Program-made: the position numbers and the translations under genes
Notes under the pieces: model-generated
The model's input: the letters and a program-made list of their open reading frames with translations, nothing else
The model's database searches: none
What the model was told of the DNA's origin: nothing
In this document: positions 5,839 to 61,673 of the stretch, piece after piece
Layout: each line of letters opens with the position of its first letter
Position numbering within the stretch: position 1 is the first letter of the stretch
Source: Mucilaginibacter empetricola
GTDB lineage: Bacteria; Bacteroidota; Bacteroidia; Sphingobacteriales; Sphingobacteriaceae
Length of the DNA stretch: 64,000 nt
Direction of reading: 5' to 3'
Assembly (NCBI RefSeq): GCF_024808665.1
Contig: NZ_JANUBZ010000001.1
Location: 434,001-498,000 of the forward strand

Positions 5839-6025
5839 CCATAACGATGGGTTTTAAACTAAGAGTGTTCGAAACATGAGTTTTATTACGAAATATGATA
5901 GGGATGTCACCATGAGGCACTCGAAGGGTGAGCGCAGAGGCCTTTGCCCACATGCTTCGAGTGCCTCAGCATGACACCCTTTTTTAATGTTTCGAACACT
6001 CCTAGTTTAAAACCCATCGCTATGG
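5839..6025. repeat. 187-bp foldback (MITE-like) element with 37-bp terminal inverted repeats
   Basis: Arms 5839-5875 and 5989-6025 are reverse complements at 35 of 37 positions. A second perfect 14-bp pair, TGAGGCACTCGAAG at 5913-5926 and its complement at 5955-5968, is nested inside. The element has no coding capacity and fills the gap between the TonB receptor and permease genes. It could act as a terminator or RNA-processing site in addition to being a non-autonomous mobile repeat. Confidence 0.85.
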
Positions 6026-22999: not shown

Positions 23000-24418
23000 A
23001 TGGCCAAAACTAAATTCGCGTATTTCTGTCAAAGTTGTGGTCATGAATCGGCCAAATGGCTGGGCAAATGTCCTTCATGCTCTCAATGGAACACTTTTGC
23101 CGAAGAAATTCTGGAAAAGGCTAACACATCTGTGCCTAACTGGAAAACAGCCTCCACCAGCCTGCAAAGGGCAAATAAACCCGTTGAGGTGGCGGACATT
23201 ACCTTTACCGAAGAACAACGACTCCTAACGCCTGATAATGAGTTTAACAGGGTACTAGGAGGCGGCATTGTAGCCGGCTCACTGGTGCTGATTGGTGGTG
23301 AGCCCGGCATTGGCAAATCAACCTTGATGCTGCAACTGGCGCTGAATATGCCGGGACAAAAAGTTCTGTATGTATCGGGCGAGGAAAGCGAACGGCAGAT
23401 AAAGATGCGGGCGGAACGACTTACCCCCCTGCCCCCTGAAGGGGGAGTTTTTGGAAAAGGTTGTTATATCCTTACTGAAACATCAACCCAAAACATATTT
23501 AAACAGATAGAGCAATTGCAGCCCGACCTGGTGGTGGTTGACTCGATACAAACCCTCCATTCGGCGCATATTGAATCAACACCGGGGAGTGTATCGCAGG
23601 TGCGGGAGTGTACGGCTGAGTTGCTGCGCTTTGCCAAAGAGAGTTCTACGCCGGTATTTTTGATAGGCCATATCACTAAAGATGGTATGATTGCCGGGCC
23701 AAAAATACTGGAGCACATGGTAGATACCGTTTTACAGTTTGAGGGCGATAGACACCATGTTTATCGCATATTACGTACGGTTAAAAACAGGTTTGGATCG
23801 GCATCCGAACTCGGTATTTACGAAATGCTGGGCGAGGGTTTGCGCGAGGTATCCAATCCATCAGAAATACTATTGTCACAGCGGGACGAAGCTTTGAGCG
23901 GTATTACCATATCTACCACGCTGGAAGGCATGCGGCCTATGATGATTGAAACCCAGGCGCTGGTGAGTACATCACCCTACGGAACCCCGCAACGGACTGC
24001 AACCGGTTTTGATACCAAACGCATGAGTATGTTATTAGCAGTGCTCGAAAAACGCTGCGGTTTTAGTCTGGGTAATAAGGATGTGTTTCTGAACATTACC
24101 GGCGGCATCAGGGTAGAGGACCCTGCCATTGACCTGGGACTGGCGGCGGCTATTATCTCGTCGCATCAAGATATTCCTATTCCTTTTAAAACATGTTTTG
24201 CTGGTGAAATAGGTTTATCGGGCGAGATAAGAGCCGTGAACAGGGTTGAACAGCGTATTGCCGAAGCACAAAAGCTGGGCTTTGAACAGATATTTATATC
24301 CAAATATAACCTTCCATCGGGTGGGCACGACAGAAAAAGCATCGACCTGTCTCGTTATAAAATTGATATTAAAGTTGTAAGTCGTATAGAAGAGGTTTTT
24401 GAATTGCTGTTTGGGTGA
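23000..24418 (+). CDS. radA: DNA repair protein RadA (Sms) with an in-frame repeat insertion
   Basis: The 472-residue RecA-like helicase has a four-Cys zinc finger (C-x2-C...C-x2-C, about 10-27), Walker A GGEPGIGKST (about 92-101), Walker B LVVVDSIQTLHS, the RadA-specific KNRFGSASELG motif and a Lon-like C-terminal domain from about residue 300. It drives branch migration in recombination. Residues 142-149 (TPLPPEGG) are encoded by a 26-bp palindromic repeat at 23423-23448 that also occurs around trpG and trpC. The reading frame is kept, and this segment is a loop that varies among RadA proteins. Confidence 0.94.
   Translation: MAKTKFAYFCQSCGHESAKWLGKCPSCSQWNTFAEEILEKANTSVPNWKTASTSLQRANKPVEVADITFTEEQRLLTPDNEFNRVLGGGIVAGSLVLIGGEPGIGKSTLMLQLALNMPGQKVLYVSGEESERQIKMRAERLTPLPPEGGVFGKGCYILTETSTQNIFKQIEQLQPDLVVVDSIQTLHSAHIESTPGSVSQVRECTAELLRFAKESSTPVFLIGHITKDGMIAGPKILEHMVDTVLQFEGDRHHVYRILRTVKNRFGSASELGIYEMLGEGLREVSNPSEILLSQRDEALSGITISTTLEGMRPMMIETQALVSTSPYGTPQRTATGFDTKRMSMLLAVLEKRCGFSLGNKDVFLNITGGIRVEDPAIDLGLAAAIISSHQDIPIPFKTCFAGEIGLSGEIRAVNRVEQRIAEAQKLGFEQIFISKYNLPSGGHDRKSIDLSRYKIDIKVVSRIEEVFELLFG
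23423..23448. repeat. 26-bp palindromic repeat inside radA
   Basis: The copy reads CCCCCTGAAGGGGG at its core (23432-23445) with a further CCCCCC upstream and ends in AGT. It is the same unit as at 47585, 47659, 48243 and 48332. It encodes residues of the RadA loop without breaking the frame. Confidence 0.8.
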
Positions 24419-24432
24419 TTAATTAACAGTAA

Positions 24433-24549
24433 TGTCATTTCGACGAGGTACGAGGAGAAATCTTGTACGCCAAGTACAGCGAACCATGCTATTCATACAT
24501 GGCGTGAATGTACATTGTATAAGATTTCTCTCTGTCGTTCGAAATGACA
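24433..24549. repeat. Palindromic repeat unit A (117 bp)
   Basis: The unit begins TGTCATTTCGACGAGGTACG and ends TCGTTCGAAATGACA, its near reverse complement. The AGAAATCTT / AAGATTTCT inner arms pair as well. The middle (about 60 bp) varies. Units B and D are alike, and the two ends of unit C lie either side of the GIY-YIG gene. Confidence 0.85.
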
Positions 24550-24562
24550 ATTTTTGTTTGGG

Positions 24563-24684
24563 TGTCATTTCGACGAGGTACGAGAAGAAATCTTGTACAC
24601 TACGCATAGCGAACTATGCCCATTCGTCAATGCACTAGCGGGAATGCACGTAGTATAAGATTTCTCACTATCGTTCGAAATGAC
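24563..24684. repeat. Palindromic repeat unit B (122 bp)
   Basis: Same ends as unit A, in the same orientation, 13 bp after it. Differences between A and B are concentrated in the centre. Confidence 0.85.
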
Positions 24685-24702
24685 AAGAGTTTTATTTTTC
24701 GG

Positions 24703-25168
24703 TGTCATTTCGAACGAGGTACGAGGAGAAATCTTATACGCAATGGATAGCGAACTATGCTATCCTTTCGTGCACTAGCGAAGTAATATTAGCGTTTATT
24801 TTTATGTGGAATTATAACTTTCATGTTTACATCACAACTAACCCAGAGAAAACCGTCCTATATGTCGGTGTAACAAATGATTTAGACAGACGTCTGTTTG
24901 AACATCATGAAAATAAAGGGAATCCTAAAACTTTTGCCGGTAAATACTACTGCTATAATTTAGTTTATTATGAACATTTCTCAAACATCAACCACGCCAT
25001 TGAAAGGGAAAAAGAAATAAAAAAGTGGCGGCGGGAAAAGAAAGAAGCATTAATAGACTCTTTTAATCCCAGTTGGAAGTTCTTAAATGATGAGTGAGCT
25101 AATAATCCGGAAGTAGCATGGCGTGAATGTATTTCGTATAAGATTTCTCTCTATCGTTCGAAATGACA
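24703..25168. mobile_element. Palindromic repeat unit C carrying a GIY-YIG nuclease gene
   Basis: The left half (24703 to about 24790) matches the left halves of units A, B and D. The matching right half (about 25117-25168) lies after the nuclease gene and ends in the same GAAATGACA. The unit therefore looks like a full repeat opened in its centre by, or built around, a 97-residue GIY-YIG ORF. The three gene-less units nearby would be its non-autonomous counterparts. Mobility is inferred, not shown. Confidence 0.7.
24804..25097 (+). CDS. GIY-YIG single-domain endonuclease (UPF0213/COG2827 type)
   Basis: The 97-residue protein is a stand-alone GIY-YIG nuclease domain: HVYITTN (the GIY-equivalent strand), VLYVGVTNDLDRRLFEHHE with the YVG (YIG-equivalent) motif and catalytic Arg, and IEREKEIKKWRREKK with the metal-binding Glu. 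The fold nicks or cleaves DNA near repeats or junctions. The ATG at 24804 is chosen because the frame upstream is repeat DNA without homology to the domain. It is embedded within palindromic repeat unit C, so its likely substrate or partner is that repeat. Confidence 0.85.
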   Translation: MWNYNFHVYITTNPEKTVLYVGVTNDLDRRLFEHHENKGNPKTFAGKYYCYNLVYYEHFSNINHAIEREKEIKKWRREKKEALIDSFNPSWKFLNDE

Positions 25169-25202
25169 TTTTTTTGAAGGGGTACGAGGAGCCATTTTTC
25201 GA

Positions 25203-25319
25203 TGTCATTTCGACGAGGTACGAGGAGAAATCTTATACGCCACGCATAGCGAACTATTCATTGATGCATTGGCGGGAATATTTGAAGTATAAGATTTCTC
25301 ACTATCGTTCGAAATGACA
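25203..25319. repeat. Palindromic repeat unit D (117 bp)
   Basis: Same terminal sequences as units A and B. A degenerate fragment with GGTACGAGGAG (about 25181-25191) lies between unit C and this one, suggesting a further decayed copy. Confidence 0.85.
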
Positions 25320-25351
25320 AGAGTTTTTATTCAACGCCGGCAAGAGCTTTA

Positions 25352-25810
25352 TTATTCCACGCAATTATCTTTTCGCCGGGTGTCAACAATGTAAATGATC
25401 TTCCAGCCGTCGGTGGTTTTTAGCAGTTGGAATACATCCACACCGCAATGGCTGAATTTATCGCCCAGGTAAAATTTATAGGGGGCCCATACGCTGGCTA
25501 AATCGCCATCAATGTTAACGGTTCCAAAGGTGATGCGCTCGTCGTAAATGGCAGTATGCGGCGTACCCACAACCTTCAAAAAATCGTTTATATTTTCCGT
25601 CGTTATTATTGCTTTCCCGGTTTTGTCGTTTGCAACGCTTTGCAATATCATATCTTTTGCAATAACGGAGCGAAATAACGTGGTATCGCCTTTGCGCATA
25701 CCATCAAACATTGTAATAACGACTTGTTTAACAGCATCAGTTGCGGATTGTTGGGCAAAAAGGCCAACGGAAAAAGTTAGCAGTAAGCCGGTAATTAGCA
25801 GTTTCTTCAT
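25352..25810 (-). CDS. Secreted NTF2-like protein
   Basis: The 152-residue protein has a signal peptide (1-20, GLFAQ) and an NTF2/SnoaL-like cone fold of about 125 residues. These include VVITMFDGMRKGDTTLFRSV and the final strand GWKIIYIVDTRR. Members bind small hydrophobic ligands or hydrolyse them, but most Bacteroidota versions are uncharacterised. The function here is unknown. It follows a small gene and aspS on the same strand, 27 bp away, and is separated from the repeat cluster by 33 bp. Confidence 0.7.
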   Translation of the reverse strand: MKKLLITGLLLTFSVGLFAQQSATDAVKQVVITMFDGMRKGDTTLFRSVIAKDMILQSVANDKTGKAIITTENINDFLKVVGTPHTAIYDERITFGTVNIDGDLASVWAPYKFYLGDKFSHCGVDVFQLLKTTDGWKIIYIVDTRRKDNCVE

Positions 25811-46175: not shown

Positions 46176-47585
46176 ATGAAAAAATATAAAATTATAACCA
46201 CCCATAAAAAGCTGCTGGCAGATACCACTACCCCGGTAAGCATTTATTTAAGACTAAGGGATGTTTTCCCTAACTCACTGCTGCTGGAAAGCTCAGACTA
46301 TCATAGTCGCGAAAATAGCATGAGTTATGTTTGCTGCGAACCAATAGCTGGTTTACTACTGAATGACGGTATTTTAAAGCTAAACTATCCCGATGGTACC
46401 GAAGAAAATTACCAGGCTGGGGAGTTTGACCTTGTTGACATGGTAAACAATTTCATAAATAGTTTTGATACGACGCCCCATCCCGGCAAAATAATATCAA
46501 ACGGATTATTTGGCTATTTTACTCACGAAGCGGTTGAGCATTTTGAAACCATCCGCCTAAAGAAAAGCGACGATGAGAGTCGTAAGATTCCGGTAATGCA
46601 GTACCATGTTTACCGCTATATTATTGCTATAGATCATTTTAAAAATGAACTATATATTTTCCATAATCAACCAGATGGCGAGGCGGACAATAACGGCCTA
46701 GAAAAAGTAGCTGACCTTATTAAAAACAAAAACTTCCCCGAATATCATTTTGAAAGCAATGGCGACGAGCAGTCAAACCTTACCAATGAGGAATTTATTG
46801 CCGTGGTTGAAAAAATGAAACAACATATCTATCGGGGCGATGTGTTTCAAATTGTTCCGTCCAGGGGTTTTTCCAGAAAGTTTTTAGGCGATGAGTTTAA
46901 CGTTTACCGGGCCCTGCGTTCTATCAACCCGTCGCCTTATTTGTTTTATTTTGACTATGGCGATTTCAGGATCTTTGGTTCATCGCCGGAGGCACAAATC
47001 ACCGTAAAAAATGAAACCGCCAATATATTCCCAATAGCAGGCACCTTTAAACGCAGCGGCGACGACGAAAAGGACGCCGAAATTGCCCGCAATCTGGAGA
47101 ATGACCCCAAGGAATCGGCAGAGCACGTGATGCTGGTTGATTTGGCTCGTAACGACTTGAGCCGCCATTGCGGAGAGGTAACGGTGAAGGCTTTTAAAGA
47201 GGTACAGTATTACTCGCACCTTATTCACCTGGTATCGCATGTGAGCGGCAAATTGCTGCCTGGCGTACCCTCATTTAAAGTAGTGGCCGATACTTATCCT
47301 GCTGGTACATTAAGTGGTGCGCCTAAATATCGCGCCATGGAAATCATCGATGAAAATGAAAAAACCAAACGCAGCTTTTATAGCGGGGCGATTGGTTTTC
47401 TGGGTTTCAATGGTGATTTTAACCATGCCATTATGATCCGTTCGTTTTTAAGTAAAAACAACACGCTGCATTACCAGGCAGGCGCCGGCATTGTAGCCGG
47501 CTCGGTAGCCGAAAGCGAGCTGAAAGAAGTTGATAATAAAATAGCGGCGTTAAGAAAAGCCATTGAACTGGCGGAGGAACTGTAA
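46176..47585 (+). CDS. trpE: Anthranilate synthase component I
   Basis: The 469-residue chorismate-binding enzyme converts chorismate and ammonia to anthranilate. LLESSDY (about 31-37) is the Trp-feedback LLES motif; catalytic-core features are VFQIVPSRGF, GSSPEAQI, FPIAGTFKRSG, LVDLARNDLSRHCG and GTLSGAPKYRAMEIID. It partners TrpG, whose gene follows. Expression is probably governed by the attenuator at 46018-46153, and the enzyme is feedback-inhibited by Trp. Confidence 0.95.
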   Translation: MKKYKIITTHKKLLADTTTPVSIYLRLRDVFPNSLLLESSDYHSRENSMSYVCCEPIAGLLLNDGILKLNYPDGTEENYQAGEFDLVDMVNNFINSFDTTPHPGKIISNGLFGYFTHEAVEHFETIRLKKSDDESRKIPVMQYHVYRYIIAIDHFKNELYIFHNQPDGEADNNGLEKVADLIKNKNFPEYHFESNGDEQSNLTNEEFIAVVEKMKQHIYRGDVFQIVPSRGFSRKFLGDEFNVYRALRSINPSPYLFYFDYGDFRIFGSSPEAQITVKNETANIFPIAGTFKRSGDDEKDAEIARNLENDPKESAEHVMLVDLARNDLSRHCGEVTVKAFKEVQYYSHLIHLVSHVSGKLLPGVPSFKVVADTYPAGTLSGAPKYRAMEIIDENEKTKRSFYSGAIGFLGFNGDFNHAIMIRSFLSKNNTLHYQAGAGIVAGSVAESELKEVDNKIAALRKAIELAEEL

Positions 47586-49742: not shown

Positions 49743-50265
49743 TTCTTGTCGGTTGTCGTAGTAAAGTATTCCTGTAGCTGCTATCTATTAACGCCCCGTT
49801 AACTTAAAAATAACAATAATTAAACCATTCGCCCGTTGTTATAGTCTTATCTAAAAAGAAGATTGACAAAATTGACGGCTATGAAGATTTTAAGAATTTA
49901 TTGGGATTATTATTTTGCCAACCTGGATAACCTATTTTTAAAGGTTTGTATGGCGGAGGTATATTAAGTTTGGTTGATTGGGTTTATAAAGTTGATTAAG
50001 TGAGTAGTTAGGAAATTTAAAACCTAATCAACCATTCACTTAATCAACTCAATCAACCAATATATTAAGTGAGTAGCTAGGAAATTTAAAACCTAATCAA
50101 CCATTCACTTAATCAACTCAATCAACCAGTATATTAAGTGAGTAGTTAGGAAATTTAAAACCTAATCAACCACTCACCTAATCAACTCAATCAACCAGTA
50201 TATTAAGTGAGTATTAGGAAATTTAAAACCTAATCAACAGCTCACCTAATCAACTCAATCAACGA
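49743..50265. other. Intergenic region with tandem repeat and a possible short ORF
   Basis: The left part (49743-49990) is AT-rich and holds a 28-residue frame starting MKILRIYWDYYFANLDNLFL (49881-49968). Nothing confirms that it is translated. The right part is the 69-bp tandem repeat that abuts the pyk stop. Confidence 0.6.
49998..50263. repeat. Tandem array of a 69-bp palindromic unit, about four copies
   Basis: Units begin AAGTGAGTAG at 49998, 50067, 50136 and 50205, so the spacing is 69 bp each time. The last unit is slightly shorter. Within each unit CCTAATCAACC and CACTTAATCAACTC are close to the complement of TTGATTAAGTGAG, giving hairpins. The array stops 2 bp before the pyk stop codon. 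Confidence 0.92.
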
Positions 50266-51705
50266 TTATTCAATAACAGTAACCTTCAACATATTAGTTT
50301 TACCTTGTTTTGAAATTGGCACTGAGGCAGTATTAATTACTACATCGCCAGCTTGAATAAGGTTTTCTGCTTTTAATATGTTGTTTACATCGCTAATGGT
50401 TTGATCTGTGCTTTCTAAGTGATCGTAATAGAAAGTTTTAACACCCCAAAGTAGGCTCAATGCATTTAACAAATGCTTGTTTGATGTAAAGATATAAGTA
50501 TGAGCCTTAGGCCTGTAGCTTGATATCTCGAACGCGGTGTAACCGGTACGGGTCATAGATACAATACCAGCCGCATTAGTATGCTCGGCCAGATATACTG
50601 CTGATCCGCAAACGGCATCAATCAAATAATCAGGAGATGAAGGATCTGTGTTGGTTTCTGCTTTATTCGCATTATACGGATAACCTAATTCCTCAACGTT
50701 ACGCACAATTTTAGCCATTGTTTCAATAACAATTACCGGGAACTCACCAACAGATGTTTCACCGCTAAGCATTACAGCGTCAGCACCATCCAGTACAGAG
50801 TTAGCAACGTCATTTACCTCAGCACGGGTTGGGCGCGGGGTAGTGATCATTGATTCAAGCATCTGGGTAGCTACAATTACAGGTTTTGAGGCCTCACGAC
50901 ATTTGCGGGCAATCATTTTTTGTAGAAGAGGTACTTCTTCTAAAGGCATTTCAACACCCAGGTCACCACGGGCAACCATTACGCCATCGGTAGCAGCAAT
51001 AATGGCGTCAATATTATCAATTGCTTCAGGCTTTTCAACTTTAGCAATTACTTTGGCGGCTTTACCGCTTTTTTCAATAATACGTTTTAAATCTAAAATA
51101 TCTTCGCCGGTACGTACAAATGAAAGACCTATCCAATCTACATCCCAATCCAATGCATATTGTAAGTTTTCCAGATCCTCTTCTGTTAAGCTTGGGATCG
51201 ATACTTTGGTATTTGGCAGGTTAACTCCTTTACGTGATGTTAAGATACCACCATGCACAATTTCGCAAACAACAGTATCAACACGGTTGGTTTCAATAAC
51301 CCTCATTTGAATTTTTCCGTCATCCAGCAAAATAATTTCATCTGGCTGTACATCCTGCGGAAAAGTTTCATAAGTAATATAAATCTGGTTATCGTCGCCG
51401 ATTAACTCATGAGTAGTTATATTAATATGTGTTCCGTTTACCAGGTGAATACCGCCATCTTTTACCAAACCGATACGAATTTTCGGACCTTGTAAGTCGG
51501 CTAAGATGCCCACATTGGTTTTATATTCGGCATTAATTTCGCGGATGGTATCAATCACGGCTTTGTGGTCCTGCGGTTTTCCATGTGAAAAATTAAGGCG
51601 GCAAATGTTAACGCCGGCTCTAATCATCGCTAATAAAACTTCTTTTTTAGCAGATGCAGGCCCCATTGTGGCAACAATCTTGGTTCGATTATAATATAAT
51701 TTCAT
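50266..51705 (-). CDS. pyk: Pyruvate kinase
   Basis: The 479-residue glycolytic enzyme transfers phosphate from phosphoenolpyruvate to ADP. It has the ATMGPAS start, NFSHGKPQDH, the metal-binding KVEKPEAIDNID, and the MVARGDLGVEMPLEEVPLLQ active-site stretch. A C-terminal allosteric domain follows from about 350. The mRNA 3' end runs into the tandem palindromic array, which would act as its terminator region. Confidence 0.96.
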   Translation of the reverse strand: MKLYYNRTKIVATMGPASAKKEVLLAMIRAGVNICRLNFSHGKPQDHKAVIDTIREINAEYKTNVGILADLQGPKIRIGLVKDGGIHLVNGTHINITTHELIGDDNQIYITYETFPQDVQPDEIILLDDGKIQMRVIETNRVDTVVCEIVHGGILTSRKGVNLPNTKVSIPSLTEEDLENLQYALDWDVDWIGLSFVRTGEDILDLKRIIEKSGKAAKVIAKVEKPEAIDNIDAIIAATDGVMVARGDLGVEMPLEEVPLLQKMIARKCREASKPVIVATQMLESMITTPRPTRAEVNDVANSVLDGADAVMLSGETSVGEFPVIVIETMAKIVRNVEELGYPYNANKAETNTDPSSPDYLIDAVCGSAVYLAEHTNAAGIVSMTRTGYTAFEISSYRPKAHTYIFTSNKHLLNALSLLWGVKTFYYDHLESTDQTISDVNNILKAENLIQAGDVVINTASVPISKQGKTNMLKVTVIE

Positions 51706-58223: not shown

Positions 58224-58403
58224 AGAGACCTGAATGTTCAAGAAGTGCTTTTTTATAAAATTTAGATTATTAAAAATAAATGGTCTATGTCCAATGGGGA
58301 CATTTGGTCGGTAGAAGCATAAACAAGCACGAGGCGTTCCTATAGGAACACTTGGTGAATCGCAAATTAATATTCTACCAACGAAATGTGCCTAACGGCA
58401 CAT
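58224..58403. repeat. Multi-hairpin intergenic repeat, copy 1 (about 180 bp)
   Basis: Shared with 61523-61673. It ends with TTCTACCAACGAAATGTGCC and TAACGGCACAT, and contains AAGCACGAGGCGTTCCTATA followed by GGAAC. Hairpins visible are TGTCC/GGACA, GTTCC/GGAAC and GTGCC/GGCAC. It lies downstream of nadD; the spacing and the loops differ between copies. Confidence 0.85.
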
Positions 58404-61522: not shown

Positions 61523-61673
61523 AGAGACCCGACCTCTCAAGAAGCGCTTGTTAAATGTCCCGTCGGGGCATTTGGTTGGTAGAAATGCATAAATAAGCAC
61601 GAGGCGTTCCTATAGGAACGCCTCGTGAATCGCAAATTAATCTTCTACCAACGAAATGTGCCTAACGGCACAT
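61523..61673. repeat. Multi-hairpin intergenic repeat, copy 2 (about 150 bp)
   Basis: Matches copy 1 at 58224-58403, with the same CTACCAACGAAATGTGCCTA core at its end. In this copy GAGGCGTTCC pairs with GGAACGCCTC perfectly, and TGTCCC pairs with GGGGCA. It lies directly before the ppnP 3' end. Confidence 0.85.

Follow-up and report, generated by a model that had tools for sequence, protein, structure and literature searches.

A short GIY-YIG nuclease gene between inverted TGTC/CGTC-tagged hairpins: a probable mobile element and a candidate enzyme for CGTC REPs

A gene for a short GIY-YIG nuclease sits between inverted, TGTC/CGTC-tagged hairpins (REPs) in many bacterial phyla; the type of repeat is matched to the clade of the nuclease, and at syntenic sites the gene is present in some genomes and absent from others. 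The locus that exposes this arrangement belongs to a 64,000-nucleotide stretch of Mucilaginibacter empetricola DNA, the whole of which is called the window here. It is probably a selfish “GIY-YIG REPtron” with its own hydrolytic nuclease, of which the gene-less REP dimers are derivatives, and the nuclease is the strongest candidate for the enzyme, so far missing, by which CGTC REPs spread. We infer that this enzyme, and not another, would spread the REPs by recognising and cutting them, and we infer a route by which they may be copied. The original prediction of an autonomous element with gene-less derivatives, resembling REP/RAYT systems but built on a different nuclease family, is supported by repeat-flanked relatives and by empty sites.

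Four palindromic units with shared ends occupy the gap (24419..25351) that separates radA (23000-24418) from a small opposite-strand gene (25352-25810), as had been predicted (Table 1). The lengths of 117-122 bp first given for units A, B and D are right for A and D and slightly short for B, and the fourth, split unit does contain the predicted 97-residue GIY-YIG nuclease. Each unit consists of two inverted hairpins with their tags outside, giving eight hairpins in the cluster, all of which combine a TGTC tag, an outer stem ATTTC...GAAAT and a CTT tail. Exact copies of TGTCATTTCG number eight in the window, every one at a unit end; at up to one mismatch there are 11 sites, against a mean of 4.05 and a maximum of 8 in shuffled sequence. 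Units A, B and D fold into long hairpins of -41.5 to -48.5 kcal/mol (RNA parameters). A further dimer, of another repeat type (T5, see below), is nested in a 39-nt inverted repeat (window 5839-6025, 95% complementary), which resembles the target palindromes that the available text of PMC3733652 describes for some REP dimers.

Table 1. Positions of REP units, hairpins and the nuclease gene in the window
Feature	Position	Length	Strand	Details
Unit A, gene-less head-to-head REP dimer	24433..24549	117 bp		REPs 24433-24461 and 24524-24549
Unit B, gene-less head-to-head REP dimer	24563..24685	123 bp		REPs 24563-24591 and 24660-24685
Unit C, gene-bearing	24703..25168	466 bp		encloses intact 97-aa GIY-YIG ORF
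Unit C left REP	24703..24732		+	tag TGTC outside
GIY-YIG nuclease ORF	24804..25097	97 aa	+	Pfam PF01541, E=1.2e-15
Unit C right REP	25143..25168		-	tag TGTC outside
Unit D, gene-less head-to-head REP dimer	25203..25319	117 bp		REPs 25203-25231 and 25294-25319
REP dimer, type T5	5904..5977			one end TGTCATGCTGAGGCACTCGAAGCATG; nuclease with T5 flanks (L004) elsewhere in same genome

The tag places these hairpins in a known superfamily, which the original prediction had not mentioned. CGTC-tagged REPs are defined, in the available text of Di Nocera et al. 2013 (PMC3733652), by an unpaired tag CGTC (often TGTC) at one hairpin end; their stem almost always begins with AT, they mostly form head-to-head dimers, and they are known from five phyla, Bacteroidetes and alpha-Proteobacteria included. 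Neisseria dRS3 and Rickettsia RPE-4/-6 are counted among them (PMC3733652). The repeats described here have the same tag, AT-start stem, head-to-head dimers and occurrence in Bacteroidetes and alpha-Proteobacteria. All eight window hairpins have the form TGTC-ATTTC...GAAAT, and all four window units are head-to-head dimers; two loci of another genome discussed below (L321/L322) are not. The four CGTC families reported in the same source have stems of 8-9 bp, loops of 4-5 nt with exceptions, and a CCA-like tail. Window hairpins have a 5-bp outer stem, a longer loop and the tail CTT, and in the genus as a whole outer stems are likewise shorter and loops longer than in those families; they are therefore placed in the CGTC superfamily by tag and arrangement, and in no family.

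According to the available text of PMC3733652, CGTC REPs seem to have no transposase of their own; it suggests that their enzyme may have been lost and names no enzyme. Its survey met no tyrosine transposase gene with CGTC REP flanks, and its count of intragenic REPs excluded hypothetical proteins shorter than 120 aa. Unlike the CGTC REPs so described, the repeats here have a GIY-YIG gene between them. The term “GIY-YIG” is absent from the text of PMC3733652, and a GIY-YIG-REP link appears neither in the available text of PMC12306157 nor in any paper, later ones included, among the matches listed, a scope outside which bioRxiv and most subscription papers lie.

The nuclease barely exceeds its domain, the PF01541 match covering residues 6-80, and an NCBIfam scan gives only a match below the family cut-off. 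Its AlphaFold2 model has a mean pLDDT of 93.4 and a pTM of 0.84. The nearest solved fold is UPF0213 (1zg2, E 4.4e-4), which a sequence search also recovers together with 1ywl; the next nearest are entries of Slx1, a branched-DNA nuclease, at a weak E of 0.075 and weaker. UPF0213/Slx1-like GIY-YIG nucleases are thus the closest solved folds to the window protein. Slx1 itself differs in being a repair nuclease that works with a partner, Slx4. Across a 38-row alignment Y9, Y20, G22, R30, H34 and E69 are invariant, and with its PF01541 match and its invariant R30 and E69 the protein has the superfamily's core with Arg and Glu. Some of the invariant residues are presumably catalytic, Arg and Glu being the catalytic residues of the GIY-YIG core.

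The window's own genome has seven relatives, the gene in the window (L001) counted in. One (L002) lies between the arms of another palindrome, GTCATGCCGAACTTGTTTCGGCA; a second (L004) is preceded by an arm of a third palindrome type, TGTCATGCTGAGGCACTCGAAGCATG, and followed by a full unit of it; a third (L003) adjoins a TGTCATTTCG unit; beside the three most distant (L005-L007) no such repeat is visible. With up to three mismatches allowed, this genome has 17 copies of the right-hand end of the window unit and 0 of the reversed pattern. As a separate observation, the distant relative L005 lies amid repeated tRNA-like sequences in a stretch that contains a run of N.

Within the genus, 58 of 61 genomes hold relatives. 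A set of 76 loci was assembled from the own-genome relatives and high-scoring ones among the matches listed, for the most part intact and clear of contig ends; removal of L005-L007 to serve as controls left 73. Inverted repeats between the 200-bp flanks (score of at least 14) are found at 64/73 loci and at 0/280 shifted intervals, so that nine of the 73 genes fail this test; with 150-bp flanks 61/73 pass, and with 300-bp flanks 66/73, against 3/280 shifted. A strict REP detector, requiring REPs on both sides within 160 bp, accepts 39/73 loci in the genus, 17/27 in wider Bacteroidota and 35/78 in other lineages, against 1/683 shifted intervals, and 67 of the 91 loci with REPs on both sides have the head-to-head arrangement. 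REP density is 5.1-8.5 per kb close to the nuclease gene and 0.19-0.29 past 500 bp, a count that includes three same-genus loci (L144, L145, L148) excluded from the phylum counts. Among neighbouring genes, 9/320 have REPs on both sides and 7/320 have inverted flanks; together with the shifted intervals this rules out chance or intergenic clustering. The idea that any GIY-YIG gene shows REP flanks is also ruled out: in the distant L007 family (22 loci fetched, 2 of them too short) a REP lies within 160 bp at 0/20 loci, and 3/20 reach the inverted-flank score.

The repeat ends of the genus fall into a small number of types. The hairpin stem is complementary in every one of them, a feature that the type detector demands and that is hence no proof of compensation on its own. 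The stems are TTTC/GAAA in T1; TCCT/AGGA, TTCT/AGAA or TGCT/AGCA in T2; TGCC/GGCA and relatives in T3; TTGC/GCAA in T4; and TGCT/AGCA, with a different loop, in T5. On a tree of 72 proteins these types, with uncorrected labels, need 10 label changes, against 40.5 when shuffled (0/200 as low); one protein (L053) was omitted for its shortness and assigned to a clade by similarity. Three loci that a loose regular expression had caught as T2 (L070, L077, L082) were relabelled by hand as T3, after which type and clade, the clades being read off the tree by hand, agree at 69/73 loci (T1 22/22, T2 14/14, T3 13/13, T4 19/23, T5 1/1). The four discordant loci all carry T4-clade genes, three of them without a typed repeat and one with T1; the last is L003, the gene beside a T1 unit in the window's own genome. 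Nucleases of several clades can coexist in one genome and still each keep their own type of repeat, as in the window's (L001 with T1, L002 with T3, L004 with T5), so host ancestry alone is an insufficient explanation. The suspected link between nuclease and repeat is thereby supported.

Repeat counts per genome were transcribed by hand; those of T1 go with the T1 nuclease. T1 ends have a median of 15.5 in the 20 of 61 genus genomes with a T1 nuclease (broken ones included) and of 1 in the other 41 (one-sided p=0.0012, shared ancestry ignored); for T4 ends, the same division by T1 nuclease gives medians of 38.5 and 38 (one-sided p=0.24, shared ancestry ignored). Two genomes (G012, G027) have a T1 nuclease and no match to the T1 pattern, a search pattern that passes over long loops. 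Across 296 Bacteroidota genomes the nuclease is present in 58/65 with the T4 pattern and 118/231 without it (odds ratio 7.9, one-sided p=5e-9, shared ancestry ignored). Repeats widespread in genomes lacking the gene, which would have told against the prediction, are thus mostly not what is seen, and there are exceptions: at 1e-10 seven Bacteroidota genomes with the T4 pattern have no nuclease, among them G062 with 392 copies, and at 1e-6 none is found in G017 (460 T4 ends) or G040 (28 T1 and 14 T4 ends). In such REP-rich genomes either the enzyme was lost while the repeats persist, or it is not needed.

The arrangement extends beyond the genus. The weakest result comes from a wider Bacteroidota sample, in which 12/27 loci pass the inverted-flank test with 300-bp flanks, against 2/53 shifted intervals. 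A genome scan with three alpha-proteobacterial query proteins, of which the best 80 of 491 matches were kept and 2 proved too short, gives inverted flanks at 57/78 loci, against 0/291 shifted. The groups that pass, named from record titles and transcribed by hand together with their scores, include alpha-, beta-, gamma- and delta-Proteobacteria, Nitrospirae, Bacteroidetes, Ignavibacteria, Planctomycetota, Cyanobacteria, Omnitrophota, Margulisiibacteriota, Edwardsbacteria, UBP14 and Roizmanbacteria; single loci of Cloacimonadota, Myxococcota, BMS3Abin03 and Rickettsiales and two loci of Chloroflexi do not pass. Many proteobacterial loci (e.g. L227, L256) have the full CGTC form, with an 8-bp stem, a 4-nt loop and a CCA tail. 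Homologues of the nuclease are therefore mostly not found without repeat ends, as predicted, in the genus and in these other lineages, and in wider Bacteroidota the expectation holds for only the 12 of 27.

Plasmids carry the gene as well: 32 records have a relative, and eleven of them were opened. REP-like inverted hairpins flank 8 of the first 10 loci; none lie at the gene in Photobacterium (L178) or R. tumorigenes (L183). In the eleventh, from Neisseria gonorrhoeae (L346), the gene lies within an array of 13 CGTCATTCCC-type REPs in 1673 bp, which we read as dRS3 from the form of that repeat. The available text of PMC3733652 equates dRS3 with the CGTC-1 elements found in Neisseria. At a Planktothrix locus (L174:1-2676) the nuclease gene and REP-like repeats have an MmeI-like restriction enzyme gene on one side and the DISARM gene drmA on the other.

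How the gene and its repeats come to lie together might be explained differently. A free-standing homing endonuclease might target the REP dimer and insert its own gene there, the REPs themselves being spread by something else; this is unlikely, yet it is a serious rival, since the gene does lie inside a palindrome and GIY-YIG is a classic homing-endonuclease fold. Sites in relatives bear on it in both directions. In a relative whose RadA is 98% identical (G023), the gap after radA has, by eye, neither a unit nor a nuclease gene. The sufB-sufC interval of Azospirillum lipoferum 4B contains the gene and four REPs; in eleven other Azospirillum records both flanks match with a query coverage of just 68-78%, and in the five that were read (L214-L218) the nuclease gene is missing and no CGTC REP is visible by eye, although L216 carries a different palindrome at the suf site. 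Empty sites, about which the original prediction had asked, therefore exist, and at these two places gene and REPs came or went together, which argues against homing into existing repeats.

Other sites, in Sphingobium and Sinorhizobium, favour the homing explanation. Seven Sphingobium plasmids cover 99-100% of the query, one of them (L222) with a one-base gap inside the nuclease gene, and four cover 74-85%; among the three of the latter that were read, a bare REP hairpin is present in L220 (imperfect) and L223, and none in L221. In Sinorhizobium, L176 has the gene and the tail of a second copy, and L219 has REP hairpins only. Against homing stand the tracking of T1 REP number with T1 nuclease presence and the scarcity of transposases beside the repeats: 49/50 Y1 transposase loci that were read are without them, and no transposase accompanies CGTC REPs in the 2013 survey, as far as its available text goes. 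One REP dimer differs in presence between Sphingobium plasmids: TomTYG73 has it, gene-less (L348:21348-21432), and a script finds no REP at the corresponding place in L347, L349 or L350, where the junction is unreadable. No target-site duplication can be read at the window, Azospirillum, Sphingobium, Sinorhizobium or TomTYG73 sites.

Copies within one genome give some view of element ends. G134 has two copies of the nuclease, separated by 6.4 kb (L304/L305), with a common block whose start is at a TGTCAT tag in each copy and whose end falls two bases past an ATGACA tag; both copies lie in REP arrays, and the left end could be one array repeat, which makes the case suggestive only. In G247 (L321/L322) the shared block starts at the tail side of a REP, with tags facing the gene, unlike the window, and these ends run against the simple picture. 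Altogether 20 regions were compared, most pairs being too diverged. A pair in G184 was discarded, since it is one stretch met twice near both contig ends and probably an overlap.

A function for the host is improbable. The nuclease might trim or resolve REP hairpins or cruciforms that stall replication, and the gene would ride in REPs for that reason; the weak likeness of its fold to the branched-DNA nuclease Slx1 fits this, as do the sister genes L003 and L065 of two close species, of which L065 is without a typed REP and L003 has only a unit of another type. Such a function agrees poorly with genes that are often multi-copy and sometimes broken, with their presence and absence between close relatives, and with genomes in which there are hundreds of REPs and no such gene was found. 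It is most improbable that RAYT/IS200-type transposases move the repeats with the GIY-YIG genes as bystanders: Y1 transposase genes do occur in 50/61 genus genomes and RAYTs are regarded as the likely movers of GTAG, the other REP superfamily (PMC3733652, available text), but a genuine unit lies near only 1/50 Y1 loci among the matches listed (L135, ~840 bp off), a second REP detector gives 10 matches in their 175,870 bp, the 2013 survey in its available text met no CGTC REPs flanking a tyrosine transposase gene, and bystander genes would not match repeat type to clade.

The reading preferred here, a selfish element with its own nuclease, suggests the following mechanism. The nuclease, encoded between its two inverted REPs, would recognise the hairpin of its own REP type, presumably exposed as a cruciform or as single-stranded lagging-strand DNA, and would cut there. 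GIY-YIG chemistry is hydrolytic, and the enzyme alone is unable to join DNA strands, so the simplest route is a cut at the hairpin followed by copying through host repair, which might carry REP dimers, gene-bearing or gene-less, to other places. Unit C would then be the coding copy, and units A, B and D gene-less derivatives.

Such an element would resemble REP/RAYT REPtrons and REPINs, in which an enzyme gene also lies beside or between inverted tagged hairpins and gene-less dimers occur elsewhere. The REP/RAYT enzyme is a Y1 HUH transposase, unrelated in fold and chemistry to the GIY-YIG (PF01541) nuclease; its hairpins are tagged GTAG and those here TGTC/CGTC; and, unlike in REPtrons, the Y1 genes examined here are nearly all without these TGTC/CGTC repeats. 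Free-standing GIY-YIG homing endonucleases share the domain and the habit of a selfish gene interrupting a possible target, but the present protein, at 97 aa, has little beyond the domain, and its tagged hairpin flanks recur at many unrelated sites. For REP/RAYT systems, enzyme and repeat types are said to coevolve (PMC6006769, available text).

If this reading is true, there is a class of mobile element that dispenses with a transposase and relies on a hydrolytic nuclease together with host repair, and GIY-YIG enzymes would be a second solution, unrelated to RAYTs, to the same problem. What moves CGTC REPs is left open in the available text of PMC3733652, and the matched nuclease gives a directly testable answer; the repeats are found beside it here in more groups than the five phyla reported there. 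On balance we lean, by a modest degree, towards the wider view that CGTC REPs throughout bacteria, Neisseria dRS3 and perhaps the palindromic elements of Rickettsia among them, derive from one ancient selfish class mobilised by small GIY-YIG nucleases, each reading the stem of its own hairpin. The large natural set of nuclease-hairpin pairs would also serve studies of DNA hairpin recognition.

Other repeats occur in the window. The radA gene contains an in-frame palindrome, ACCCCCCTGCCCCCTGAAGGGGGAGT (23423-23448, peptide TPLPPEGG), which is also present in G023 (L185); at its protein position L188 and L189 have other inserts, and similar copies lie at 47585, 47661 and 48243. A tandem array at 49990-50296 has four copies at a spacing of 68-69 bp, with 62-100% identity to the reference. 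Finally, two 87-nt copies (58317-58403 and 61587-61673), 3.3 kb apart, are 94% identical.
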